A stretch of DNA of 64,000 nt from Peptoniphilus sp. ING2-D1G (GTDB taxonomy: Bacteria; Bacillota; Clostridia; Tissierellales; Peptoniphilaceae). The stretch spans positions 744,001 through 808,000 of the forward strand of contig LM997412.1 of assembly GCA_000952975.1 (NCBI GenBank), read 5' to 3'. The position numbers were made by a program, and so were the translations under genes. A model generated the notes under the pieces. That model did not search any database and was not told the DNA's origin. It saw only the letters and a program-made list of their open reading frames with translations. Below, in pieces: positions 3,516 through 24,618 of the stretch (positions are counted from its first letter, which is position 1; every line of letters begins with the position of its first letter).

Positions 3516-4133
3516 ATGTATGAGGATTTAAGTAAAAGAGAACTTGATATTTTGTTGTTTTTAAAAAAATATTTAGATGCAAAGGGATATCCACCCACCG
3601 TTAGAGAGATTTGCCAAGCATTAAATATAAAGAGTACTTCTACAGTACATGGAAGCATGGAAAAACTTGAGTATAAAGGATATATAAAGCGTGACCCTAC
3701 AAAACCAAGAGCTGTGGAAATATTAGAAAGTAGTGATGATATATTACTGCCTAAAAAGAAAACCATGGATATACCTATTGTCGGTAGAGTTGCTGCAGGA
3801 ATGCCTATACTTGCCTACGACAATATAGAAGATACGCATCCTTTACCTTTGGATTTTACAAAAGATCGAGATTTATTTATTTTAAAAGTAAGTGGAGAAA
3901 GTATGATAAATGCAGGAATATTAGATGGTGATTACGTAATTATTGAAAAAACTAATTTTGCAAAAAATGGAGATAAAGTGCTTGCTCTAATAGATGATGA
4001 GTCAACAATAAAGACTTATTATAAAGAAAAATCAGGTTACAGATTGCAACCTGAAAATGATTATATGGATCCGATTTATGTCAAGGATCTAAAAATATTG
4101 GGGAAAATAGTTGGGTTATACAGAAAAATGTAG
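3516..4133 (+). CDS. lexA: LexA repressor
   Basis: The SOS repressor (205 residues) binds operators until RecA filaments trigger its self-cleavage. The N-terminal winged helix-turn-helix is about residues 1-65 (REICQALNIKSTSTVHGSMEKL). The cleavage-site Ala-Gly lies in GRVAAGMP (about 92-93), the catalytic Ser in SGESMI (about 129) and the catalytic Lys in GDKVLA (about 154). ATG follows GGAGGTG at the right spacing. It is divergent from the yneA-like gene, and the shared region carries four or five operator-like sites, so it is probably autoregulated. The identification is firm. Confidence 0.97.
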   Translation: MYEDLSKRELDILLFLKKYLDAKGYPPTVREICQALNIKSTSTVHGSMEKLEYKGYIKRDPTKPRAVEILESSDDILLPKKKTMDIPIVGRVAAGMPILAYDNIEDTHPLPLDFTKDRDLFILKVSGESMINAGILDGDYVIIEKTNFAKNGDKVLALIDDESTIKTYYKEKSGYRLQPENDYMDPIYVKDLKILGKIVGLYRKM

Positions 4134-4145
4134 TGGTAATTATAT

Positions 4146-5429
4146 TTATTTAATATAGGAGAGTACTTTCATCAGCGCAAATTTAGCGTGATGATATGTT
4201 AGTCCCCCTTGGTAATACACCATATAAGGTTCTCTTAAAGGCCCGTCAGCAGAAAGTTCAATAGAAGAACCTTCTATAAAACCGCCTGCTGCCATTATTA
4301 CCTTATCTTCATATCCAGGCATGTCCCAAGGTTCAGGGGTAAAAAAAGAATCAACGGGAGAGGACTCTTGTATTGCCTTGCAAAATAATTTTAATACTTC
4401 AGGATCCTTTAATTCAATTGCAAGAATGATGTCGGATCTTTTATCAGTTGATTTAGGAACAGTTCTATATCCCATTTTTTCAAAGGCAACAGAAAATAAT
4501 AAAGCTGAATTTATTGCATCTTCAACAATCTTAGGTGCAATAAACAATCCTTGTAATATTTGCCTTGTCATTCCAAAACTTAATCCGCAATCCTTTCCTA
4601 TTCCAGGTGCAGTAAGTCTATTTGCTGCCCTTTCAATAAGAATTTTTTTACCTGCGAGATAACCGCCGGAATAGGCTAAACCTCCACCGGGATTTTTTAT
4701 TAGAGAGCCCGCTATTAAATCAGCACCAATGTCTGTAGGTTCATATGTTTCAGTAAATTCTCCGTAACAATTATCAACAAAGACAATTATATTAGGATAT
4801 TTATCTTTTATATATTCTACAGCCTCTTGGAGCTCACAAATAGTCATTGCTCTTCTGTCTGAATAACCGGTGGATCTTTGCAATGCAATCATTTTTGTAT
4901 TATTCTTGATATTTTCATCGATTTTTGCAATATCGATCTTATTATCAACCAAGGGTATTTCTGAATACTCAACACCATTTTCAAATAAGCTTCCCTCTGC
5001 ATTACCCCTAATTCCTATCACTTTTTGTAAGGTGTCATAGGGAGTACCTGTTATGGAAAGAAGATGGTCGCCCTTTGATAAATTTGAAAATAAGCAAAGC
5101 GATATTGCGTGAGTTCCGCTTACTATATTTGGTCTTACTAAGGCATCTTCGCTATTAAAGACCTTACTGTAAATTTGTTCTACCTTTTCTCTACCTATAT
5201 CTCCATATCCATATCCTGTAGTCCAGTTAAAATCTGTTGCTTGAAGTTTGCATTCTTGCATTGAATTTAAAATTTTAATTTGGTTATATAGGCTTATATA
5301 TTTTCTATCTTTAAATTTATCTTCTAAAATACTCTCACAATCTTCAACATAATCATAAATCTCCTCATTTATGTCATAATAATCTTTTATTTGTTTTTTA
5401 ATTTTTTCATTTATTTTAGAGTTTTCCAA
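4146..5429 (-). CDS. ynbB: PLP-dependent methionine gamma-lyase family protein (YnbB type)
   Basis: A 427-residue pyridoxal-phosphate enzyme of the family often labelled aluminium resistance protein or methionine gamma-lyase-like. The probable PLP lysine is in AGSLIKNPGGG (about 240), preceded by the cofactor-contacting Asp in VFVDNCYGEF. It starts with TTG at 5429, supported by AGGAG; its first 14 bases overlap miaA. In many clostridia this gene follows miaA and hfq; here hfq is missing and the two are directly fused in tandem. The substrate is not known for this branch, so the name describes the family only. Confidence 0.85.
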   Translation of the reverse strand: MENSKINEKIKKQIKDYYDINEEIYDYVEDCESILEDKFKDRKYISLYNQIKILNSMQECKLQATDFNWTTGYGYGDIGREKVEQIYSKVFNSEDALVRPNIVSGTHAISLCLFSNLSKGDHLLSITGTPYDTLQKVIGIRGNAEGSLFENGVEYSEIPLVDNKIDIAKIDENIKNNTKMIALQRSTGYSDRRAMTICELQEAVEYIKDKYPNIIVFVDNCYGEFTETYEPTDIGADLIAGSLIKNPGGGLAYSGGYLAGKKILIERAANRLTAPGIGKDCGLSFGMTRQILQGLFIAPKIVEDAINSALLFSVAFEKMGYRTVPKSTDKRSDIILAIELKDPEVLKLFCKAIQESSPVDSFFTPEPWDMPGYEDKVIMAAGGFIEGSSIELSADGPLREPYMVYYQGGLTYHHAKFALMKVLSYIK

Positions 5430-6330
5430 ATTTTGCTCCTATTAAATTATTAATTTTTTCTTTATAATCAACTGAATTTTTATCAATCCAATTTATTCTA
5501 TCATCTTTTTTAAACCATGTTATTTGTCTTTTTGCATAACGTCTGCTGTTTCTTTTTATTAATCTCACAGCCTCATCAAAGTCGTATTCTCCCTTTAAAT
5601 ATGCTATTATTTCTTTATATCCTATGGCTTTTAAACTATTATAATCTAAATCAAAACTTCCTTTTAATATCGATTTTGTTTCATTAAGTAACCCATTTTT
5701 AATCATTGCATCGACTCTTTGATTAATTTTTTCATATAGTATTTCTCTATCCATATATAGTCCAATATAAAGTAAATTGTAGCTTTCATTTTTTTTTCTT
5801 AGATTAGAAGTAGTTTTTTTAGAATGTTTACTAATTTCTAAAGCTCTGATAACTCTATTTTTATTTTGTCTATCGATTTTTGAGGCGGAATCCGGATCGG
5901 ATTTTTGTAGTTGTTCATATAGATAATTCAAGCCTTTATCATTATATTGATCAATCAAAAATTTTCTATATTCGAAATCTGTTTTAATATTTTGAAAATC
6001 TAAATCGTATATAATGGAATTTATATATAGGCCTGTACCTCCTACAATAATTGGGAGTTTTTTTGATTCATTGATTTTTGTTATTAATTCTTTCGCATTT
6101 TTTTGAAACTCCGCAACGCTATAATTTTCATCGGGGTTTATAATATCAATTAAATAATGTTTTACTTCTGTTTTTTTTATGTCGATTTTAGCGGTTCCGA
6201 TATCCATACCTCTATAGATTTGCATAGAATCTGCTGAAATTATTTCTCCATTATATTTTTTTGCAATATCAATAGATATTTCGCTCTTCCCTACCCCTGT
6301 GGGACCGGTTATAATTAATAAATCATCCAT
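5416..6330 (-). CDS. miaA: tRNA dimethylallyltransferase
   Basis: MiaA (304 residues) transfers dimethylallyl to A37 of tRNAs that read UNN codons. Visible are the P-loop GPTGVGKS (about 8-15), ISADSMQIYRGMDIGTAK and the conserved IVGGTGLYI. It shares the operon with miaB, which methylthiolates the same base, so two consecutive steps of one modification are encoded together. It lies 4 bases after mutL and overlaps the next gene by 14 bases. Confidence 0.96.
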   Translation of the reverse strand: MDDLLIITGPTGVGKSEISIDIAKKYNGEIISADSMQIYRGMDIGTAKIDIKKTEVKHYLIDIINPDENYSVAEFQKNAKELITKINESKKLPIIVGGTGLYINSIIYDLDFQNIKTDFEYRKFLIDQYNDKGLNYLYEQLQKSDPDSASKIDRQNKNRVIRALEISKHSKKTTSNLRKKNESYNLLYIGLYMDREILYEKINQRVDAMIKNGLLNETKSILKGSFDLDYNSLKAIGYKEIIAYLKGEYDFDEAVRLIKRNSRRYAKRQITWFKKDDRINWIDKNSVDYKEKINNLIGAKFGKL

Positions 6331-6334
6331 TTAA

Positions 6335-8152
6335 TCACTCTCTTAGGAACATTTTCTCAAAGTTATATTTACTTTTTTTGACAACAGTTGGCCTTCCGTG
6401 TGGACATGTATATGGATTTTCACAATTTATCAGTTGTTTAATTAGACTTTCTATTTCCATATGACTTAATTTATCTCCTGCTTTTACCGCAGCTTTGCAA
6501 GCTTTTTTCATTATAATATAGGGATCTGTCTCATATGCGGATTGAGAAATATCGTCTAAGGAACTGATGATATCATAGACGAAATTTTTATTTAGATTTT
6601 TGCCAAAAAGGACCGGATATTGTCTTAAAATGATATCAGATTCACCGAAATCAGATATATCAAATCCTATGGATTTAAATAGTTCAATATTTCTTTCGAC
6701 CAGATCCTTTTGCGTGGGTGTTAATGTTAGAATTTCAGGTTCAAGCAATATTTGACTATATATATTTGAATCTTTATATTGACGCATATATTTTTCATAT
6801 AAAATTCTTTCGTGTGCAGCATGTTGATCAATGAAATATATAGTATCTTCTGCAGAATTTTCAAGAATTATATAGGTGCTGAAAATCACACCTATAATAT
6901 TTGAATTCAATAAATTGAAGTCTATTTTAGAATTTACTTCTTCTTTATAAAAGTTATTATTTTCTTTATATACAGCTCTATAATCATCTTCTCCTTCATA
7001 AAGAAAGTTACTTGTTTTGTAAAATGAATTTATATGATTGGATTTTTCAAAATTATTTTTTGCTATTTCATTATCTTTTGTTGTCTCTTTGCTATAATCA
7101 TAGATTTCAAATATATTCATATTTTCAGGTTTTTTATCATCACTTTCCTTAATATCCGAAATTCGCCTATTGAGATTCAAGTTTTTGTTTACTAAATTTT
7201 CTATGATTTTTAAAACATTATTATCCTTGGAAATTTTCACTTCAGATTTTGTAGGATGAATATTAACATCTATAAGCATAGGATCAATTTCAATATACAA
7301 TAAAAATACTGGATATCTATTCAGAGGGATTAAAGATCTGTATTGATTTTCAATGACAGAAGAAAATTCGGAATTTTTTACAAATCTTCCGTTAATATAT
7401 ATATATTGGTGAGATCTGTTTGACCTAAATAAAAGGTTATTGGATATAAATCCTTTAATCTTATAGGAAGAAGAGGTAAATTCAATTGGTATTAAATTAG
7501 AGGCAATATCTCTACCTAAAATACTATAGATATGATTTAATTTGTTGTTGTTTGCAATAGAATTTAATATAATTTTGTCATTTCTGATTAACTTAATATT
7601 TATATCTGAGTTGGACAAGGCGATTTTTTGTACTATGTCATAAATATTATTAAACTCAGTATTATCAGACTTTAAAAAATTTTTCCTTACAGGAGTATTA
7701 TAAAAAATATCTTTAATATAGAATATTGTTCCTGTATTCATAGATATATTTTCTAATGAATTTATTATACCTTTTTCAACTGTAGCTTTTGTTCCTATTT
7801 CAGATGAATTATCTTTTGTTAAAACCTTTATTTTTGAAATATTGGAAATACTGGCAAGTGCTTCACCTCTAAAACCTAATGATTTTATATTAAGTAGGTC
7901 GTCAGAAGAAGTTATCTTTGATGTAGAGTGTCTTAAAAAAGCTAATTTTAAATCTTCGCTATTCATCCCTACACCATTATCTGCAATCTTAATTAAATCT
8001 GTTGTTTCACCTGAAATTTCAATATTTATGTGTTTGGCTTTTGCGTCTATGGAATTTTCTATCATTTCTTTTACAATGGAAGCGGGGTTTTCTATTATTT
8101 CTCCTGCAGCAATTTTTGAAATTGTAATATCATCTAATACCTTAATACTCAT
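6335..8152 (-). CDS. mutL: DNA mismatch repair protein MutL
   Basis: MutL (605 residues) links MutS mismatch recognition to strand removal. The N-terminal GHKL ATPase motifs are present (EMIENSIDAKA, DNGVGM, GFRGEALASI). The C-terminal domain holds DQHAAHERILYEKY (about 440), the DQHA(X)2E(X)4E-type endonuclease motif, and CPHGRP near the end, which helps bind the metal. So this is the nicking type of MutL, as expected in bacteria without MutH. The middle linker (about 330-410) is poorly conserved and charged. It overlaps mutS by 11 bases. Confidence 0.97.
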   Translation of the reverse strand: MSIKVLDDITISKIAAGEIIENPASIVKEMIENSIDAKAKHINIEISGETTDLIKIADNGVGMNSEDLKLAFLRHSTSKITSSDDLLNIKSLGFRGEALASISNISKIKVLTKDNSSEIGTKATVEKGIINSLENISMNTGTIFYIKDIFYNTPVRKNFLKSDNTEFNNIYDIVQKIALSNSDINIKLIRNDKIILNSIANNNKLNHIYSILGRDIASNLIPIEFTSSSYKIKGFISNNLLFRSNRSHQYIYINGRFVKNSEFSSVIENQYRSLIPLNRYPVFLLYIEIDPMLIDVNIHPTKSEVKISKDNNVLKIIENLVNKNLNLNRRISDIKESDDKKPENMNIFEIYDYSKETTKDNEIAKNNFEKSNHINSFYKTSNFLYEGEDDYRAVYKENNNFYKEEVNSKIDFNLLNSNIIGVIFSTYIILENSAEDTIYFIDQHAAHERILYEKYMRQYKDSNIYSQILLEPEILTLTPTQKDLVERNIELFKSIGFDISDFGESDIILRQYPVLFGKNLNKNFVYDIISSLDDISQSAYETDPYIIMKKACKAAVKAGDKLSHMEIESLIKQLINCENPYTCPHGRPTVVKKSKYNFEKMFLRE

Positions 8153-12210: not shown

Positions 12211-12264
12211 TAAAAAATAAAGAAGTATAATTCAGCATTATGAATTTATACTTCTTTATTTTTT
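12211..12264 (-). terminator. Terminator after the ftsK-recA-Rad50-like operon
   Basis: A long hairpin (arms 12212-12234 and 12241-12264, one bulge) ends in a minus-strand T run. Its upstream arm overlaps the last codons of the Rad50-like C-terminal gene, including its stop codon. It separates that operon from the miaB promoter. Confidence 0.8.
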
Positions 12265-12902
12265 TCAACATTTGAAATTCCGTTTCTATTGCTTACAATA
12301 TACGACAAATCACATATTTCACTTAAATGTCTATTATGAGTTACCATTATTACTTGTCTTTTAAACATAGAAGAAGATTTTTTTAAAAATTCACCTAAAT
12401 TAAAAATATAGTCATCGCTTACATGTTTCCCCGGCTCATCAAATATCAAAGGACCTTCAATGCCGGGGCTGTGAATTTGAATAAAGGATATTCTTAAGGC
12501 TATAGAAATTATATCAACAATTCCCCCACCTCTTGCAAGTTCCGGTTTGGTCTTTATGCTATATCCGTCATAATTTGAAACTACATAGAATTCAGCCTGA
12601 GGGATATTTCTACTTTCAGTGATTTCAATTATAAATTCAATGTCTGTCTCTAAAACAAATTGAAGGCATTTAGTAACTAGTTCCTCAATTTGCCTTTTTG
12701 CCTGTTCTCTCCCGTAAGCTGATGTTTTTTGAAAAAGAACTGTAACTTTGGACAAAATATCGTTGTATTTTTCAAGTTTTTCTATTTCAGAAGAGGTTTC
12801 TTTAAACTGTTCTGTAATAATCGACATTTTACCCTTTTCAATATTTATTTCATTTTCAATAGTATTTATGGACTTATTTAATGAATCAATATCCATTTGC
12901 AT
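12246..12902 (-). CDS. Rad50/SbcC-like ATPase, C-terminal half (separate gene)
   Basis: A 218-residue protein that looks like the C-terminal half of a Rad50/SbcC-type ABC ATPase. It has a short coiled coil (about 1-70), an ABC-signature-like segment LARGGGIVDIISIALR (about 122-138), Walker B LIFDEPGKH (about 155) and the switch histidine in VTHNRHL. It lacks a Walker A, which is in the gene at 13140-14588. ATG at 12902 overlaps the previous stop as TGATG, so translation is coupled. A TTG one codon earlier is also possible. With its two upstream neighbours it would form one functional ATPase head. Confidence 0.85.
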   Translation of the reverse strand: MQMDIDSLNKSINTIENEINIEKGKMSIITEQFKETSSEIEKLEKYNDILSKVTVLFQKTSAYGREQAKRQIEELVTKCLQFVLETDIEFIIEITESRNIPQAEFYVVSNYDGYSIKTKPELARGGGIVDIISIALRISFIQIHSPGIEGPLIFDEPGKHVSDDYIFNLGEFLKKSSSMFKRQVIMVTHNRHLSEICDLSYIVSNRNGISNVEKNKEV

Positions 12903-13135
12903 CAATCCTTAGGCATTAATTTGTCAGCCCTGTCCAATAAATCGTCAATTTCATTTTTCAATTTATCGATTTCTGAATTTAAGTTTTCGGGCTCAACACC
13001 ATACTGTTTTATTTGTTCAATTAAATCCTTTTTGGTAGCATATAGACTTTCAAGTTTTATCTCAGCTCTATTTTTTAAATCTTTGGATTTTTCCAGATTA
13101 TCCTTTAATATATTTAATTTTTCTTCATAGTTCAT
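12902..13135 (-). CDS. Small coiled-coil protein between the Rad50-like halves
   Basis: A 77-residue, highly charged, probably all-helical protein (MNYEEKLNILKDNLEKSKD, then repeated Leu/Ile heptads). No catalytic motif is seen. I chose ATG at 13133-13135 because GAGGAG lies 7 bases upstream inside the end of the previous gene; the frame is open further upstream but overlaps that gene. It may supply part of the returning coiled-coil arm of the Rad50-like complex. No family is recognised. Confidence 0.7.
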   Translation of the reverse strand: MNYEEKLNILKDNLEKSKDLKNRAEIKLESLYATKKDLIEQIKQYGVEPENLNSEIDKLKNEIDDLLDRADKLMPKD

Positions 13136-13139
13136 AGAC

Positions 13140-14588
13140 TTACTCCTCAACGTATCTTTTTCTGATATTTTCAATAACTTCATTATCTATTTTGCTAAAA
13201 CATAAGGGGCATTGCCCTATATGAAGCATTTCATTTTGATAGCTTTTATAATTTAATTTGATGTTTTTATCAAATTTTAAATATTCTTCTTTAGATTTTG
13301 ATATATTTTGCTTCAAAGAATCTAAATTAATTTTGCTATTTTTCAGAAAATCATATTTAATTAATACTTTATCAAGTATTTTTAATATATTTTCAATTTC
13401 ATCTAAATCATTGTATTTAAGGCAAAAACTTTTCCCAACTTCAATTCTATTTGATAAATCTTCATAATTTGTAAAGAAGTTTTGAAAAATATTTAGTCGC
13501 ATTAAAAAAACATTTGCTTGATTATATATTTCTTCTATGGCATTTAAATTACTTAACAGATTTAAAATTTTATTTTGATTTTCTATATCGACTAAGCATA
13601 AATCATACTTATTTTTTTGGTAGGTCATTTCTTTATAAAACTTAGTTTTTTGGGAAATTGTATCAATAGTATTTTCATATAAATCTAAATTTTCTAATTT
13701 TTTTATCCATTTTTTATTTTTATTAATTTCTTCACTATTAAATAAAATTTTTTTATTAATATCGGATAAGTTTTTATATTTAAAATATTTTAAAGTTAAT
13801 TTGTTATAAATATTTAAAATAGTATCTAAATTTTTATGTTTTTCTATTACACGAAGTTCATTGTCAATTTCAAATTCAATACTTTTAAATTTTTGTAATA
13901 ATTTTATAAGAGAATTATATTTATCAATTTTGGTGTCTAATTTAAACTTTAGATTTTTAAGTTTCGCTAAAATTTCTTCTTTTTTTGATAGATAATCGAA
14001 TTCCTTTAGTTTTTCAGATAAAAATTCTCTTCTATCTTCAAGAGTTTTAATGTCTGAAGTAGTGCTTTTTGAGTCTCTTATGGTTTCTCTTAAGGCATCA
14101 TCAATGAAATTAACCCCTACTAACCTGCCTATTGCACTTGCACGAATAGAATTTTTTTCGTTTAATAGAAAAGGACCTTCCAATTGTTCAGCTATATTTA
14201 TTATACTATTTGTGGATTCATCTAAATTAATTTTGTACATATTAATTTCTTCCGAAATTTCTTTAGGAACAATTCGTCCAAAGCCTTCAAAATAAAATTC
14301 TTCACCATTGGATTTTTTTAAATAATAGCTATTTTTTGAAGGAGAACGAAATCTTTTTACTATAGCCCCAGTGTTGAAGTGGACACTCACAGACGTATTT
14401 TTTTCGCCCTGTCTAATAAAATAGTCTCCTTGAGGCTCATTGTAAAGAGCCCATTTTATTGCCCTGATTATAGCAGTTTTGCCACTATCTGAATTGCCTA
14501 CAATCACATTTAATCCCTTATCAAAGTCAAGAAGAGTATATTTATGAGATTGAAAATTTTCAAGTTCCAATTTGCTTATATATATCAA
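13140..14588 (-). CDS. Rad50/SbcC-like ATPase, N-terminal half with zinc-hook motif
   Basis: A 482-residue protein. The N-terminus has YISKLELENFQSHKYTLLDF and Walker A GNSDSGKTA (about 31-39), typical of Rad50/SbcC/RecF-like ATPases. A long coiled coil follows (about 170-450), and CPLC (about 464-467) near the end matches a zinc-hook CxxC. The chain then stops, with no Walker B or signature; these are in the gene at 12246-12902. It starts with TTG at 14588, overlapping the nuclease gene's TGA stop (TTGA). Context next to a Mre11-like nuclease and recA supports a role in double-strand-break processing. Confidence 0.88.
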   Translation of the reverse strand: MIYISKLELENFQSHKYTLLDFDKGLNVIVGNSDSGKTAIIRAIKWALYNEPQGDYFIRQGEKNTSVSVHFNTGAIVKRFRSPSKNSYYLKKSNGEEFYFEGFGRIVPKEISEEINMYKINLDESTNSIINIAEQLEGPFLLNEKNSIRASAIGRLVGVNFIDDALRETIRDSKSTTSDIKTLEDRREFLSEKLKEFDYLSKKEEILAKLKNLKFKLDTKIDKYNSLIKLLQKFKSIEFEIDNELRVIEKHKNLDTILNIYNKLTLKYFKYKNLSDINKKILFNSEEINKNKKWIKKLENLDLYENTIDTISQKTKFYKEMTYQKNKYDLCLVDIENQNKILNLLSNLNAIEEIYNQANVFLMRLNIFQNFFTNYEDLSNRIEVGKSFCLKYNDLDEIENILKILDKVLIKYDFLKNSKINLDSLKQNISKSKEEYLKFDKNIKLNYKSYQNEMLHIGQCPLCFSKIDNEVIENIRKRYVEE

Positions 14589-15565
14589 TAAAACTCAGCT
14601 CCTCTTCTTTGTTGCTCTTCGATTCTTGATATAGCTTCATTTCTAATTTCATCTTCAATAGATTCATTATTTGCAATTTCATTTAATATATCATAGACAT
14701 TTAAATTGCTTAGTTGTGTTGTTGAATCAATAATTTCTTTAAATTCATAGATTTTTGATTGTTTGAATTTATGTCTTTCTATTTCCCTTCTATCAAGTAC
14801 GACATTGCCGTCCAATGCGGTTTTTAAATAAATTTCCTTTACGCTAATACAATCGGTAAGCTCTAAAATTACTATCTTAGGTCTTCTGTTTATTTCAGAA
14901 ATTGAATTGGATATTCTAACCAATGCACCAGGATTAATAAAGTATTTTCCATTTATCTCTTGAGTTTTAAAACCAAAATGATAATGTCCTCCTAAAGTGA
15001 TATCTGCTTTAGTATCTAACAAGTCTGAAATAATGGTATGAGGTACATTTTTCAAAAAAGGTTTATCAATTAAAAAACCGTGGGTCATATGAATTTGATA
15101 ATCAATATAGGGGTTTCTATCACTTACAATATATTTGTATCTATTGGCTTCATCATCGATTCCTGCGAAAAAAGGATTAGATGTAAGTTGAACCTTTGTT
15201 CCGTCTTTTTCAAGAATAATTTTTTTATCATTTACAAGTTTTATTATGTTAAAACTATCTAATAAACCAAGCATAGTTCTGTTTAAAGTCTTGTAATTAT
15301 GACCAAATATATCGTGATTTCCACTTATCATGTATATAGGTGCTTTGAATTTTTGAAAAATTTTGGCAAACTCATTGACTATAGATATTGAAGTATCAGG
15401 TCTGTCGAATAAATCTCCTCCATGCAGTACAAAGTCCACATTCTCCTTGATACTTATATCTGCAACCTCATTAATTTTATTCTTTAAAGTTTCGAAGAAA
15501 TTATCAAGTCTATTTTTAGGGTTCGTAGCCCGTATATGTGTATCCGTAAAATACAAAATTTTCAA
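14585..15565 (-). CDS. Mre11/SbcD-like metallophosphoesterase (DNA nuclease)
   Basis: A 326-residue calcineurin-like phosphoesterase. Metal-binding motifs are in order: TDTHI (about 7-11), GGDLFDRP (about 49-56), GNHDIFGH (about 82-89), MTHGF and GGHYHFG (about 193-199). This is the nuclease partner of Rad50/SbcC ATPases, processing DNA ends or hairpins. It starts with TTG at 15565 after a GGTG element, 16 bases after recA, and overlaps the Rad50-like gene. Mre11-like fits better than classical SbcD because its partner ATPase is split and lacks SbcC length. Confidence 0.88.
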   Translation of the reverse strand: MKILYFTDTHIRATNPKNRLDNFFETLKNKINEVADISIKENVDFVLHGGDLFDRPDTSISIVNEFAKIFQKFKAPIYMISGNHDIFGHNYKTLNRTMLGLLDSFNIIKLVNDKKIILEKDGTKVQLTSNPFFAGIDDEANRYKYIVSDRNPYIDYQIHMTHGFLIDKPFLKNVPHTIISDLLDTKADITLGGHYHFGFKTQEINGKYFINPGALVRISNSISEINRRPKIVILELTDCISVKEIYLKTALDGNVVLDRREIERHKFKQSKIYEFKEIIDSTTQLSNLNVYDILNEIANNESIEDEIRNEAISRIEEQQRRGAEFY

Positions 15566-15581
15566 TTACACCACTGCCTTA

Positions 15582-16610
15582 TTATTCGGTTTTTTCTTCT
15601 GTATCGTTAAATTTTTTATTGGTTAAATTAAATTTTTCTCTGACTTTAATTTCTATTTCTTTAGCTATTTCGGGATTTTGTTCAAGAAAAGATTTTGCGT
15701 TTTCTCTACCTTGGCCTAATCTGTGTTCATTGTAGCTGTACCATGCACCGGATTTATTGACTATACCGGAATCAGCAGCTGTATCTAACAGTGATCCTAT
15801 TTTTGAAATTCCCTTGCCATACATTATATCAAATTCAGCAATTTTAAATGGGGGTGCAACTTTATTCTTAACTACTTTGACTCGGACTCTATTTCCCAGA
15901 ATTTGTTCACCTTGCTTAATATTTTCTGTTTTTCTGATATCAAGTCTAATAGTCGCATAAAATTTGAGAGCACGTCCTCCTGTAGTTGTCTCAGGATTAC
16001 CAAACATCACTCCCACCTTTTCTCTTAATTGATTAATAAAAATTACAGCTGCATTTGATTTGTTTATAGCTCCTGTTAATTTTCTTAGCGCTTGAGACAT
16101 AAGTCTTGCTTGTAAGCCTATATGACTATCTCCCATTTCTCCTTCAATCTCAGCTTTTGGGACAAGAGCGGCAACGGAGTCAACGACAACTAAATCCACA
16201 GCATTGGATCTTACAAGCGATTCAGTTATTTCTAATGCTTGTTCTCCGGTATCGGGTTGAGAAATTATTAAGTTTTCAATATCAATTCCAAGATTTTTTG
16301 CATAATTTGCATCTAAGGCATGTTCTGCATCAATAAATGCCGCTATTCCACCATTTTTTTGAGATTCGGCAATTATATGCAAAGCGAGTGTGGTTTTTCC
16401 TGATGATTCTGGCCCATATATTTCGATTATTCTTCCCTTTGGAATACCTCCTACACCTAAGGCTAAATCCAAAGTTAAAGATCCTGTAGGAATGGTTTCT
16501 ATGTCAATTTTGCTATTTTCACCAAGTCTCATAATTGATCCTTTGCCAAATTGTTTTTCGATTTGTGCAATTGTCATGTCCAATGCCTGTTTTTTACTAT
16601 CTTTTTCCAT
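15582..16610 (-). CDS. recA: Recombinase RecA
   Basis: RecA (342 residues) forms the strand-exchange filament and triggers LexA self-cleavage. Walker [10 protein letters not shown] (about 67-75), [20 protein letters not shown] and the L2-region [11 protein letters not shown] are present. It starts 8 bases after cinA and is followed closely by the Mre11/Rad50-like genes. I see no SOS box directly upstream, so any SOS control must come from elsewhere. AGGAGG precedes the ATG. Confidence 0.98.
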
Positions 16611-22025: not shown

Positions 22026-22457
22026 TCATTTGCCTGTATGACCAAATCCACCGCTTGATCTGTCTGTTTCTTCAAGTTTATCAGATAGTTCAAAATAAAC
22101 TTTTTCATATTTTACAAAGACCATTTGAGCAATTCTATCCCCTGTTTTAACCTCTACAGGTTCTTTGCCCAGATTTATTAAAATAATTTTTACTTCTCCT
22201 CTATAATCAGAATCAATCGTACCGATGCCATTGGCTAAACACAGTCCATGTCTTAATGCCAATCCGGATCTTGCTCTAATCTGTGCTTCATAACCCTCTT
22301 CAATTTCCATAAAAAGACCTGTGGGAACAAGTTCTCTATCACCCGGGTTGATTATTAAAGATTTCTCTAAATTGGCTCTTAAATCCACACCTGCAGATCC
22401 GTTGGTTTCGTATTTGGGTAATGGATTTTTGCTTTTATTGATAATTTTTACTTTCAT
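22026..22457 (-). CDS. dut: dUTP diphosphatase
   Basis: Dut (143 residues) hydrolyses dUTP to dUMP, keeping uracil out of DNA. All five trimeric dUTPase motifs are visible, including ARSGLALRHG, GTIDSDYRGE and the C-terminal SSGGFGHTGK arm that closes the active site. It has its own ribosome binding site directly after the terminator that follows pnp. Confidence 0.96.
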   Translation of the reverse strand: MKVKIINKSKNPLPKYETNGSAGVDLRANLEKSLIINPGDRELVPTGLFMEIEEGYEAQIRARSGLALRHGLCLANGIGTIDSDYRGEVKIILINLGKEPVEVKTGDRIAQMVFVKYEKVYFELSDKLEETDRSSGGFGHTGK

Positions 22458-22468
22458 AATTTCTCCTT

Positions 22469-22498
22469 AAAAAAACAGGATACTATTTTGTATCCTGA
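22469..22498 (-). terminator. Terminator after pnp
   Basis: Stem CAGGATA (22476-22482) with TATCCTG (22491-22497), followed on the minus strand by seven T. It sits between the pnp stop codon and the dut ribosome binding site, with almost no spare sequence, so dut expression probably depends on read-through. Confidence 0.8.
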
Positions 22499-22506
22499 TA
22501 TTTATT

Positions 22507-24618
22507 TTATTGATTTTCTTTATTTTCTTCTTTTCTAACAGGTTTTGGAAGTAAAGCTTTGCGAGATAATGAAATTTTTGAATCATCATCTATTTCGATG
22601 ACTTTGACTTTTACAATATCTCCTACCTTTAAAACATCTTCGACTTTACCTGTTCTTTCATGTGAAATTTGTGATATGTGAAGTAATCCTTCTATGCCTT
22701 TTTTAATTTCCAAAAAAGCACCGAATTTCATTATTTTTTTTACTTTTCCATCGTATATATCCCCGACTTCAACTTCCTTTACAATTGATTCAATAATCGC
22801 GATAGCTTTTTTTGCCTTTTCAGTATCTTCTGACAATACTGAAACTTTTCCATCGTCATCAATATCTATTTTTACTCCGGTTTCTTCAATAATCTTATTT
22901 ATTGTTTTTCCGCCAGCTCCAATTACTTCGCCTATTTTATCAGGATCAATATTTATTATGTGAATTATCGGAGCATATGGAGATAAATGGTCTCTGGGGA
23001 TTTCAATTGTAGATTTTAAATGCTCTAATATGAAAAGTCTTGCTTTTTTTGCTTTTTTAAGAGCTTCTTCGAGTATTTCCCTGCTGATTCCTTCAACTTT
23101 TATATCCATTTGCATAGCAGTAATTCCGTCTTTTGTGCCTGCTACTTTAAAATCCATATCTCCAAAATGGTCCTCAAGCCCTTGAATATCTGTTAAAATT
23201 TTTATTATTCCGTCTTTTTCGATAAGACCCATAGCTATACCGGCAACAGGAGCTGTAATTGGAACACCTGCATCCATAAGAGCCAGTGTAGATCCACAAA
23301 TAGAAGCTTGTGACGAAGATCCGTTTGACGACAATACCTCAGATACAACTCTTATTGCATATGGAAAATCATTTTCTGAGGGTAAGACAGGTATTAAAGC
23401 TCTTTCAGCTAAAGCACCATGACCTATTTCACGTCTTCCCGGCCCTCTTACAGGCTTGGAATCTCCCACTGAATACGGTGGGAAATTATAATGATGGATA
23501 TATCTTTTGGGTTTATCATCACCTAAGCCGTCTATTACCTGTACTTCGCTTAATCCGGCAAGTGTGGCAACAGACAAGACTTGAGTTTGTCCTCTTTTAA
23601 ATAAGCCTGAGCCGTGAGTTCTCGGAAGCAAACCTACTTCTGAGGATAGAGGCCTGATTTCATCTAATTCTCTTCCATCAGGTCTGATATCTTCTTCTAA
23701 AATTTCGCGTCTTACTTCTTCTATTTCAATGGATTCCATAATTTCTTCAATATCTTTGGAATAATTTTCCATATATTCCTCAAAGTGATTTCTGATGTTT
23801 TCTTTGGCTAAATCAGTTTGTTCTTCTCTTACTATTTTATCAGAATTATTAATGGCCTTCACCAGTAAATCTTTTCCGTATTCTCTAATTTTTTTATCCA
23901 GCTCATCATTAGGTTTGAATACTTCATATTCAGATTTTTCTTTACCGACTTCATTTTTAATCTGATCAATAAATTCACAAATCTTTTTTATTTCTTCATG
24001 ACCTGCAAGTATTGCACCCAACATCTCTTCTTCGCTAACTATGTTTGAGCCGGCTTCAACCATCATGATGGCGTTTTTTGTTCCGGATACAACTAAACTT
24101 ATATCCGACTTTTCCCTTTGTTCTTCATCAGGGTTGATTATATATTTTTCATCTATAAATCCAACTTGCACTGAACCTGTCGGGCCATCAAAGGGTATAT
24201 CTGAAATAGATAATGCAATAGAAGATCCGATCATTGCCAAAATATCAGGTTGAGCGTTTTGATCAACTGAAAGTACGGTAGCAATTATTTGAACATCATT
24301 TCTATATCCTTCTGGAAACAACGGTCTGATGGGTCTATCAATTAGTCTTGCAGACAGAATTGCTTTTTCGCTTGGCTTTCCTTCCCTTTTTATAAATCCT
24401 CCAGGGATTTTGCCCACAGAATACATTTTTTCTTCAAAATCGACACTAAGAGGAAAGAAATCAATTCCTTCTCGTGGTGAATTTGATGCAACAGCAGTTA
24501 CAAGAACAACTGTATCACCATATTGCAATAAACAGGCTCCGTTAGCTTGTTCCGCAACTTTTCCGGTTGTTACTTGTAGCGTTTTACCTGCAAGCTCTAA
24601 TTTGAAAACTTTCTGCAT
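22507..24618 (-). CDS. pnp: Polyribonucleotide nucleotidyltransferase (PNPase)
   Basis: PNPase (703 residues) degrades RNA 3' to 5' by phosphorolysis. Two RNase PH domains are separated by a helical domain; the second RNase PH core includes [25 protein letters not shown] domain ([18 protein letters not shown]) and an S1 domain ([21 protein letters not shown]) end the protein. It follows rpsO, the usual bacterial order, with a terminator between them. RNase Y and NrnA, other parts of RNA turnover, are also in this window. Confidence 0.97.

Follow-up and report, generated by a model that had tools for sequence, protein, structure and literature searches.

In textbooks, Rad50 and SMC proteins are single chains whose arm folds back on itself. 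In a 64,000-nucleotide stretch of the Peptoniphilus sp. ING2-D1G genome (positions 744001-808000 of a single 1.60 Mb contig; hereafter the window), the parts of a Rad50-like ATPase are encoded by three consecutive genes, here called A, B, and C, beside a gene for a Mre11-like nuclease (D) and a gene that we take, from its sequence, to be recA. Is this one Rad50 gene that has fallen apart, or a Rad50 chain that is naturally divided? A sequence-only reading of the window had proposed the three-gene ATPase next to the nuclease and recA, and the reading frames and family matches bear it out. We consider it probable (about 0.82) that A, B, C, and D encode a Mre11-Rad50-type machine with a naturally divided Rad50 chain.

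The two lobes of a Rad50 head are found in A and C. The A protein matches AAA_23 of Pfam (4e-16), Rad50 (PDB 3aux, 2e-6), and phrog_16465 (1.9e-58, residues 2-430 of 482). C matches phrog_15167 (2.2e-61, residues 4-213 of 218). It has no ATPase match in Pfam up to E = 1, and its assignment as the C-lobe is based on NCBIfam, PHROGs, and PDB sequences. A profile of 40 C chains matched Rad50 (PDB 3qkr, 4.7e-11), and the alignment of C to Pyrococcus Rad50 (3qkr chain B) spans the coil to near the C-terminus. C also keeps Walker B and the H-loop (MVTHN). Walker A and CPLC in A, a signature and Walker B in C, and a 77-residue helical chain between them had all been read from the letters. These placements are confirmed with one amendment: the signature-like site is present in C, but its sequence is ARGGG, not LSGGE. 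In the alignment LSGGE of the Rad50 signature stands opposite ARGGG, with Arg in place of the signature Ser in at least 90% of the 40 aligned C chains and with GGG invariant in all 40. The D-loop of Rad50, YLDEE, corresponds to HVSED in the C family profile. B matches phrog_18563 over residues 1-76 of 77 (9e-12).

D matches Pfam Metallophos (8.5e-17), Mre11 in the PDB (1.6e-6), and NCBIfam sbcd (TIGR00619, 2.5e-10), the last at 40.6 bits and so below the curated cut-off of 77.65 bits. The metal motifs are retained in the aligned D chains: D-x-H and GD..D in 34 out of 35 each, GNHD and [GSACT]H-x-H in all 35. The motif [THA]H[GAS], found in 12 of the 35, was not used; a stricter G[GSC]H-x-H matched one of 34 chains. 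The genes run recA, D, A, B, C on the minus strand, neighbors among D, A, B, and C overlapping by, or separated by, a few bases (Table 1). The TGA stop of D is overlapped by the TTG start of A, the Shine-Dalgarno sequence of B (GAGGAG) is the last two codons of A, 5' of the B ATG, and one base of TGATG is common to the B stop and the C start. Each piece has its own start signal or coupling, as the sequence-only reading had it for B and for the B/C junction.

Table 1. Genes, motifs, and a repeat at the A-D locus, in window positions.
Feature	Position	Strand	Details and basis
recA	15582-16610	minus	16 bases upstream of D, same strand
D, Mre11/SbcD-like metallophosphoesterase nuclease	14585-15565	minus	TTG start, 326 aa; Pfam, NCBIfam, and PDB matches
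A, Rad50 N-lobe, long helical arm, CPLC hook near C-terminus	13140-14588	minus	TTG start, 482 aa; AAA_23, Rad50 3aux, phrog_16465
B, small helical protein	12902-13135	minus	ATG start, 77 aa; phrog_18563, family alignment
C, Rad50 C-lobe with N-terminal helix, signature-like ARGGG, Walker B, H-loop	12246-12902	minus	ATG start, 218 aa
Walker A GNSDSGKT, A residues 31-38	14475-14498	minus	read from sequence and A alignment
CPLC zinc-hook motif, A residues 460-463	13200-13211	minus	A alignment
Signature-like ARGGG, C residues 123-127	12522-12536	minus	LSGGE at that place in Rad50
Walker B LIFDEP, C residues 152-157	12432-12449	minus	
AT-rich inverted repeat, then T run (minus strand)	12220-12256	minus	overlaps C stop; read from sequence

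Three adjoining genes could be one Rad50/SbcC gene broken by a frameshift, an assembly error, or decay, or joined again by programmed frameshifting. We therefore looked at the same genes in relatives, where the sequence-only reading had suggested a search for the gene order. A public genome collection was scanned with C; of the best 80 loci, L001-L047 were taken as true relatives and the other 33 were weak matches. The rows nearest to the window genes are a Peptoniphilus metagenome-assembled genome (L001), P. catoniae, P. obesi, and P. mikwangii. In 34 of the 47 loci C has both D and A beside it, each a gene of its own, and B was found in 32 of those 34 (blastp, 1e-3). The gene order was recovered: 33 of the 34 operon loci have D-A-(B)-C, and the remaining one (L047) has A-B-C-D. 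In L030, 96 bases separate A and C (5754-5851) where the close relative L027 has B, and from the size of this gap B seems shortened or lost there. Some genomes carry a second copy of the system (G079 with L129/L130, G115 with L131, and G240 with L132), and in one of the G079 copies the D and C frames are shortened.

In the other 13 of the 47 loci C stands alone, with a relative of the window ftsK upstream in 12. In all six of the C-alone loci whose frames were printed, C sits between two recurring neighbors, presumably folD and rny. In 12 of these 13 genomes A adjoins D and B, and the 1.5 kb around A holds no C; the one C of each genome is on a contig other than that of the D-A-B genes. C is therefore a separate chain. 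The 13th genome (G011, a 1.6 Mb assembly) gave only weak partial A matches. Within the family of the window genome, C was found at E < 1e-30 in 68 of 130 genomes, always in a frame no longer than 249 residues and in a few cases broken; frames long enough for both lobes were seen only as fusions in one order. One intact gene in close relatives was the outcome named beforehand as speaking for splits by frameshift or misassembly; what we found were these short C frames in 68 family genomes and an unlinked C in 12 genomes elsewhere. Broken copies do occur, with an in-frame stop in the A gene of L001 and a broken C in L004 (at its start) and in G498. Against a broken gene in general stand identical boundaries across distant Bacillota and a phage, the independent starts, and low ratios of nonsynonymous to synonymous substitution (dN/dS). 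Compared with the nearest relative, L001, dN/dS is 0.09 for D, 0.18 for B, and 0.12 for C, so that these codons look to be under purifying selection. Since the L001 A frame has the in-frame stop, A was compared with L002 (0.38) and L003 (0.40) instead, with dS above 1. The unlinked C genes refute a frameshift, an assembly error, or a pseudogene, and we give the broken-gene explanation, with or without programmed frameshifting, practically no weight.

We also searched 113 genomes of one order, in which natural fusions occur: six chains join D, A, and C, and five join A and C with D separate. The D-A-C fusions are single chains of about 700 residues (range 679-783) with the order D, A lobe, C lobe. 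Such natural fusions link D, A, and C as parts of one machine. Whether the halves make one ATPase head was the other point named beforehand; that A and C lobes share a chain in these 11 genomes, and that A accompanies C in all 64 genomes with C in the survey below, speak for it. CPxC is missing from all 11 fusions. B is missing from all 11 fusion genomes, whereas each of 11 unfused genomes picked for comparison has it. In 10 of the 11 fusions the matches to the two lobes overlap or are at most 16 residues apart. L186 is the sole fusion to keep a short coil, the other ten being without essentially the whole arm. A tree of 56 D rows groups the eleven fusion genomes in one clade (support 99/99), which lies inside a 23-row set (96/86) whose other 12 rows are split. 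Most simply, the fusion would be derived and the split older within the family. An origin of D-A-C inside A-C is only partly supported, the forks that place it there having values of 97/78, 97/87, and 85/42. The root of the D tree is unsure because the outgroup branch is very long. In L125, L126, and L127 a large gene follows the D-A-C fusion gene; we take it to resemble addB, a double-strand break enzyme.

To see how A, C, and the usual SbcC are distributed, we surveyed 398 genomes of the phylum that are at least 90% complete, counting C at E < 1e-30 and A at E < 1e-20. C is encoded in 64 genomes and A in 67, and all 64 with C also have A. The two genes lie within 6 kb of each other in 59 of the 64, three are fusions, and in two they are on different contigs. 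The A-only genomes are G183, with a 999-aa frame of SbcC-like size, G275, with a 512-aa frame scoring 107 bits, and G303, with a 69-aa frame. SbcC (TIGR00618, E < 1e-20) is present in 166 of the 398 genomes, yet in only 2 of the 64 with A and C versus 164 of the 334 others. The window genome has no TIGR00618 match at 1e-20. The curated cut-off of TIGR00618 is strict and was passed by none of the 398 genomes and by one of 14 controls. A PHROG search of the window genome is not used here, since it also gives matches in 8 of 14 control genomes at E up to 0.001. The split system seems to take the place of the usual SbcC. The window genome also encodes a metallophosphoesterase paired with a 782-residue ATPase (L167:1242-4617) that has a mid-chain hydrophobic stretch like a membrane hairpin; we take this pair to be YhaO/YhaN-like.

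The genes are not confined to chromosomes. Bacillus phage vB_BboS-125 (L201, NC_048735.1) has A, B, C, and D (3701-6573 and record 22426-23394), with an AP2-domain gene between A and B and no annotated feature under the D match in the record. Relatives of C are in nine plasmid records (Bacillales, Alkaliphilus), annotated as hypothetical or, once, as ParA. A mobile or defense-type SMC-like system, and not housekeeping repair, would account for these locations and for the weak PADLOC matches to LmuB (A 1.7e-12, C 6.7e-6) and of A to GajA. Those matches are, however, weak and of the general ATPase kind. Among the matches listed for A-D (25 of 32 families for A) there is no other Lamassu model, the flanks not having been searched for partners. 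A recA relative lies upstream in 22 of the 34 operon loci and SbcC is rare beside the system, both of which speak for repair. A defense role is a minor alternative that we think unlikely.

Near its C-terminus A has a conserved hook motif, C-P-x-C being invariant in all 34 aligned A chains. Arm lengths were measured on those A frames whose CPxC is at most 70 residues from the end and whose match begins no later than model position 15; there are 83 of them, 75 being distinct. The hook positions of the 75 distinct chains fall into classes with none between: 365-370 (3 chains), 413-423 (12), 458-463 (53), 507-516 (5), 554 (1), and 603 (1). When a profile of the most populated class (53 chains) is compared with itself, the highest score comes at an offset of 47 residues (0.397) and the second highest at 94 (0.318). 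The 47-residue score was not reached in 1000 shuffles, nor in a further 1000 in which blocks of seven were shuffled. An AlphaFold model of A alone (34 rows; predicted local distance difference test, pLDDT, 76; predicted template modeling score, pTM, 0.33) breaks the arm at about residues 252, 299, 346, and 393, into helices 254-298, 301-344, and 348-391, a short break falling about every 47 residues. The path of the arm is unsettled because of the pTM of 0.33.

Would the arm of A nevertheless pair in the plain antiparallel way, its outgoing helix against B plus the helix of C, with the excess of A as a loop? Both B and C do contain stretches whose sequence looks like coiled-coil helix. The lengths do not agree with it. 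The distance from the A start to the hook ranges from 365 to 603 residues while B is constant at 77-88 residues, and the median distance from the C start to GGG is 125-127 in every arm class (one odd value, -17, comes from a misplaced GGG match). Over 67 loci the rank correlation of length is -0.02 between A and C and -0.39 between A and B. With an A arm that varies by steps of 47 and a B and C that do not vary with it, arms of equal length in the antiparallel Rad50 manner are very unlikely, and the conventional form is disfavored. The earlier claim that the usual symmetric arm cannot form is strengthened by these steps, which B and C do not follow.

Consecutive 47-residue helices of A could also fold back on one another as hairpins, giving a compact bundle in place of a rod, and the breaks about every 47 residues in the AlphaFold model would suit such a fold. 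Units are gained singly, however (hook at about 365, 413, 460, 507, 554, and 603), so that the hook of a hairpin arm would flip from end to end with each unit, and the hydrophobic seam of the A arm continues across the breaks. Covariation at five arm breaks ranged from 0.0075 to -0.0057 versus a mean of -0.0012 (standard deviation 0.0061) and gave no hairpin signal, with little power at an effective depth of 41. A rod fits the single-unit steps and the continuous seam better than hairpins do, though this is not proof; we regard the hairpin arm as the less probable form, at somewhat under one chance in three in our judgment. We infer instead that the 47-residue units pair between two A chains of a dimer.

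In the Mre11-Rad50-type machine that we favor, A would supply the N-lobe with Walker A and C the C-lobe with the signature-like site, Walker B, and H-loop, making one ABC head in trans. Two heads would sandwich ATP, dimerize, and gate nuclease D. The A shaft of 47-residue helical units would end in the CPxC zinc hook, with B at the shaft/hook end and the N-terminal helix of C at the head end, and the A/B shaft and hook would link complexes or ends. The job would most likely be that of SbcCD ahead of RecA, trimming blocked or hairpin ends and tethering ends; the recA neighborhood and the rarity of SbcC beside the system are our grounds for placing end processing before RecA. More tentatively, and with less than even confidence, we suggest a modular shaft in which the units of one A pair with those of a second A, so that the shaft can grow by single units, with B capping the hook and C closing the head in trans. 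Head closure might then be regulated, as C can come from another operon, and an A-C fusion would drop the hook, B, and most or all of the shaft.

Several points weigh against the machine as proposed. It is known here from genes and sequence. A is under weaker constraint than D, and its sole model, that of A alone, has the pTM given above. With the signature Ser replaced and the D-loop different, the ATP cycle may be non-standard. No recA relative is within the fetched flank in 12 of the 34 operon loci, and 62 of the 130 family genomes lack C at E < 1e-30, which makes the system dispensable and its loss common. The Fisher p of 5e-14 for the SbcC contrast is uncorrected for shared ancestry. The SbcC count scored two candidates per genome; a rescan of the 64 with ten per genome still gave 2.

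How does the system compare with those already known? With SbcCD/Mre11-Rad50 it has in common a nuclease and an ABC head, a CxxC hook motif, and a nuclease gene placed before the ATPase gene. The features of Mre11-Rad50 that it has are an N-lobe with Walker A, a C-lobe with Walker B and H-loop, and a nuclease with metal motifs; those that it lacks are LSGGE, both lobes in one chain joined by a coiled coil, and arms of matching length. Unlike SbcCD/Mre11-Rad50, the head here is in two chains, the arm has 47-residue units without an equal return arm, and there is an extra chain, B. It also differs from SbcCD in having ARGGG for LSGGE and in scoring below the curated SbcC and SbcD cut-offs. The catalytic domain of Pyrococcus Rad50 in PDB 1f2t has its lobes as two chains, A matching chain A and C matching chain B; that split was reportedly made for crystallography, and here it is natural. 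The YhaO/YhaN-like pair is also a metallophosphoesterase with an SMC-like ATPase, but there the ATPase is a single chain of 782 residues that includes a hydrophobic stretch. PHROGs 16465, 18563, and 15167 correspond to the three chains and are likewise separate; the matches cover most of the chain lengths, and the families are annotated as exonuclease, unknown, and ATPase with no link between them stated. As the PHROG families of A, B, and C are separate, the same division had been recorded in phage data before, without comment.

Fusions of Mre11 and Rad50 (SbcDC) have been described, including four from Firmicutes and one from a Bacillus phage (Yoshida et al. 2011, PMC3175470). The D-A-C chains are like them in having the nuclease N-terminal to the ATPase in one chain. 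One P-loop segment was not observed in the Anaerostipes and Bacillus phage fusions (PMC3175470), and these could be half-heads. The Mimivirus fusion has 1351 residues (PMC3175470) versus 679-783 here, where the chains have no hook and form a clade among split genes; we do not assume common descent. In the titles and abstracts of the open-access literature searched, we found no description of a naturally split Rad50 head. We place the system in the Mre11-Rad50 kind, of which we take it to be a new form, and outside the curated SbcC family. The distinct break-repair complex of the sequence-only reading is thus distinct in its architecture, while its kind is still Mre11-Rad50.

Two features of the surrounding sequence concern expression. 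The AT-rich inverted repeat at the C stop is likely the end of the operon; a scan that requires G-C pairs did not report it. A scan for sigma-70 promoters gave 26 sites versus 29.0 in shuffles (standard deviation 5.6), no excess.

A Rad50 head that is divided through deep branches and re-fused in one order, where the hook, B, and most or all of the arm have gone, is a natural experiment on how the parts depend on one another. It would give a joint function to three gene families that had no stated common role, and it offers a small nuclease-ATPase chain of about 690 residues for structural work. The divided machine may also explain how DNA ends are processed in many Bacillota without SbcC.

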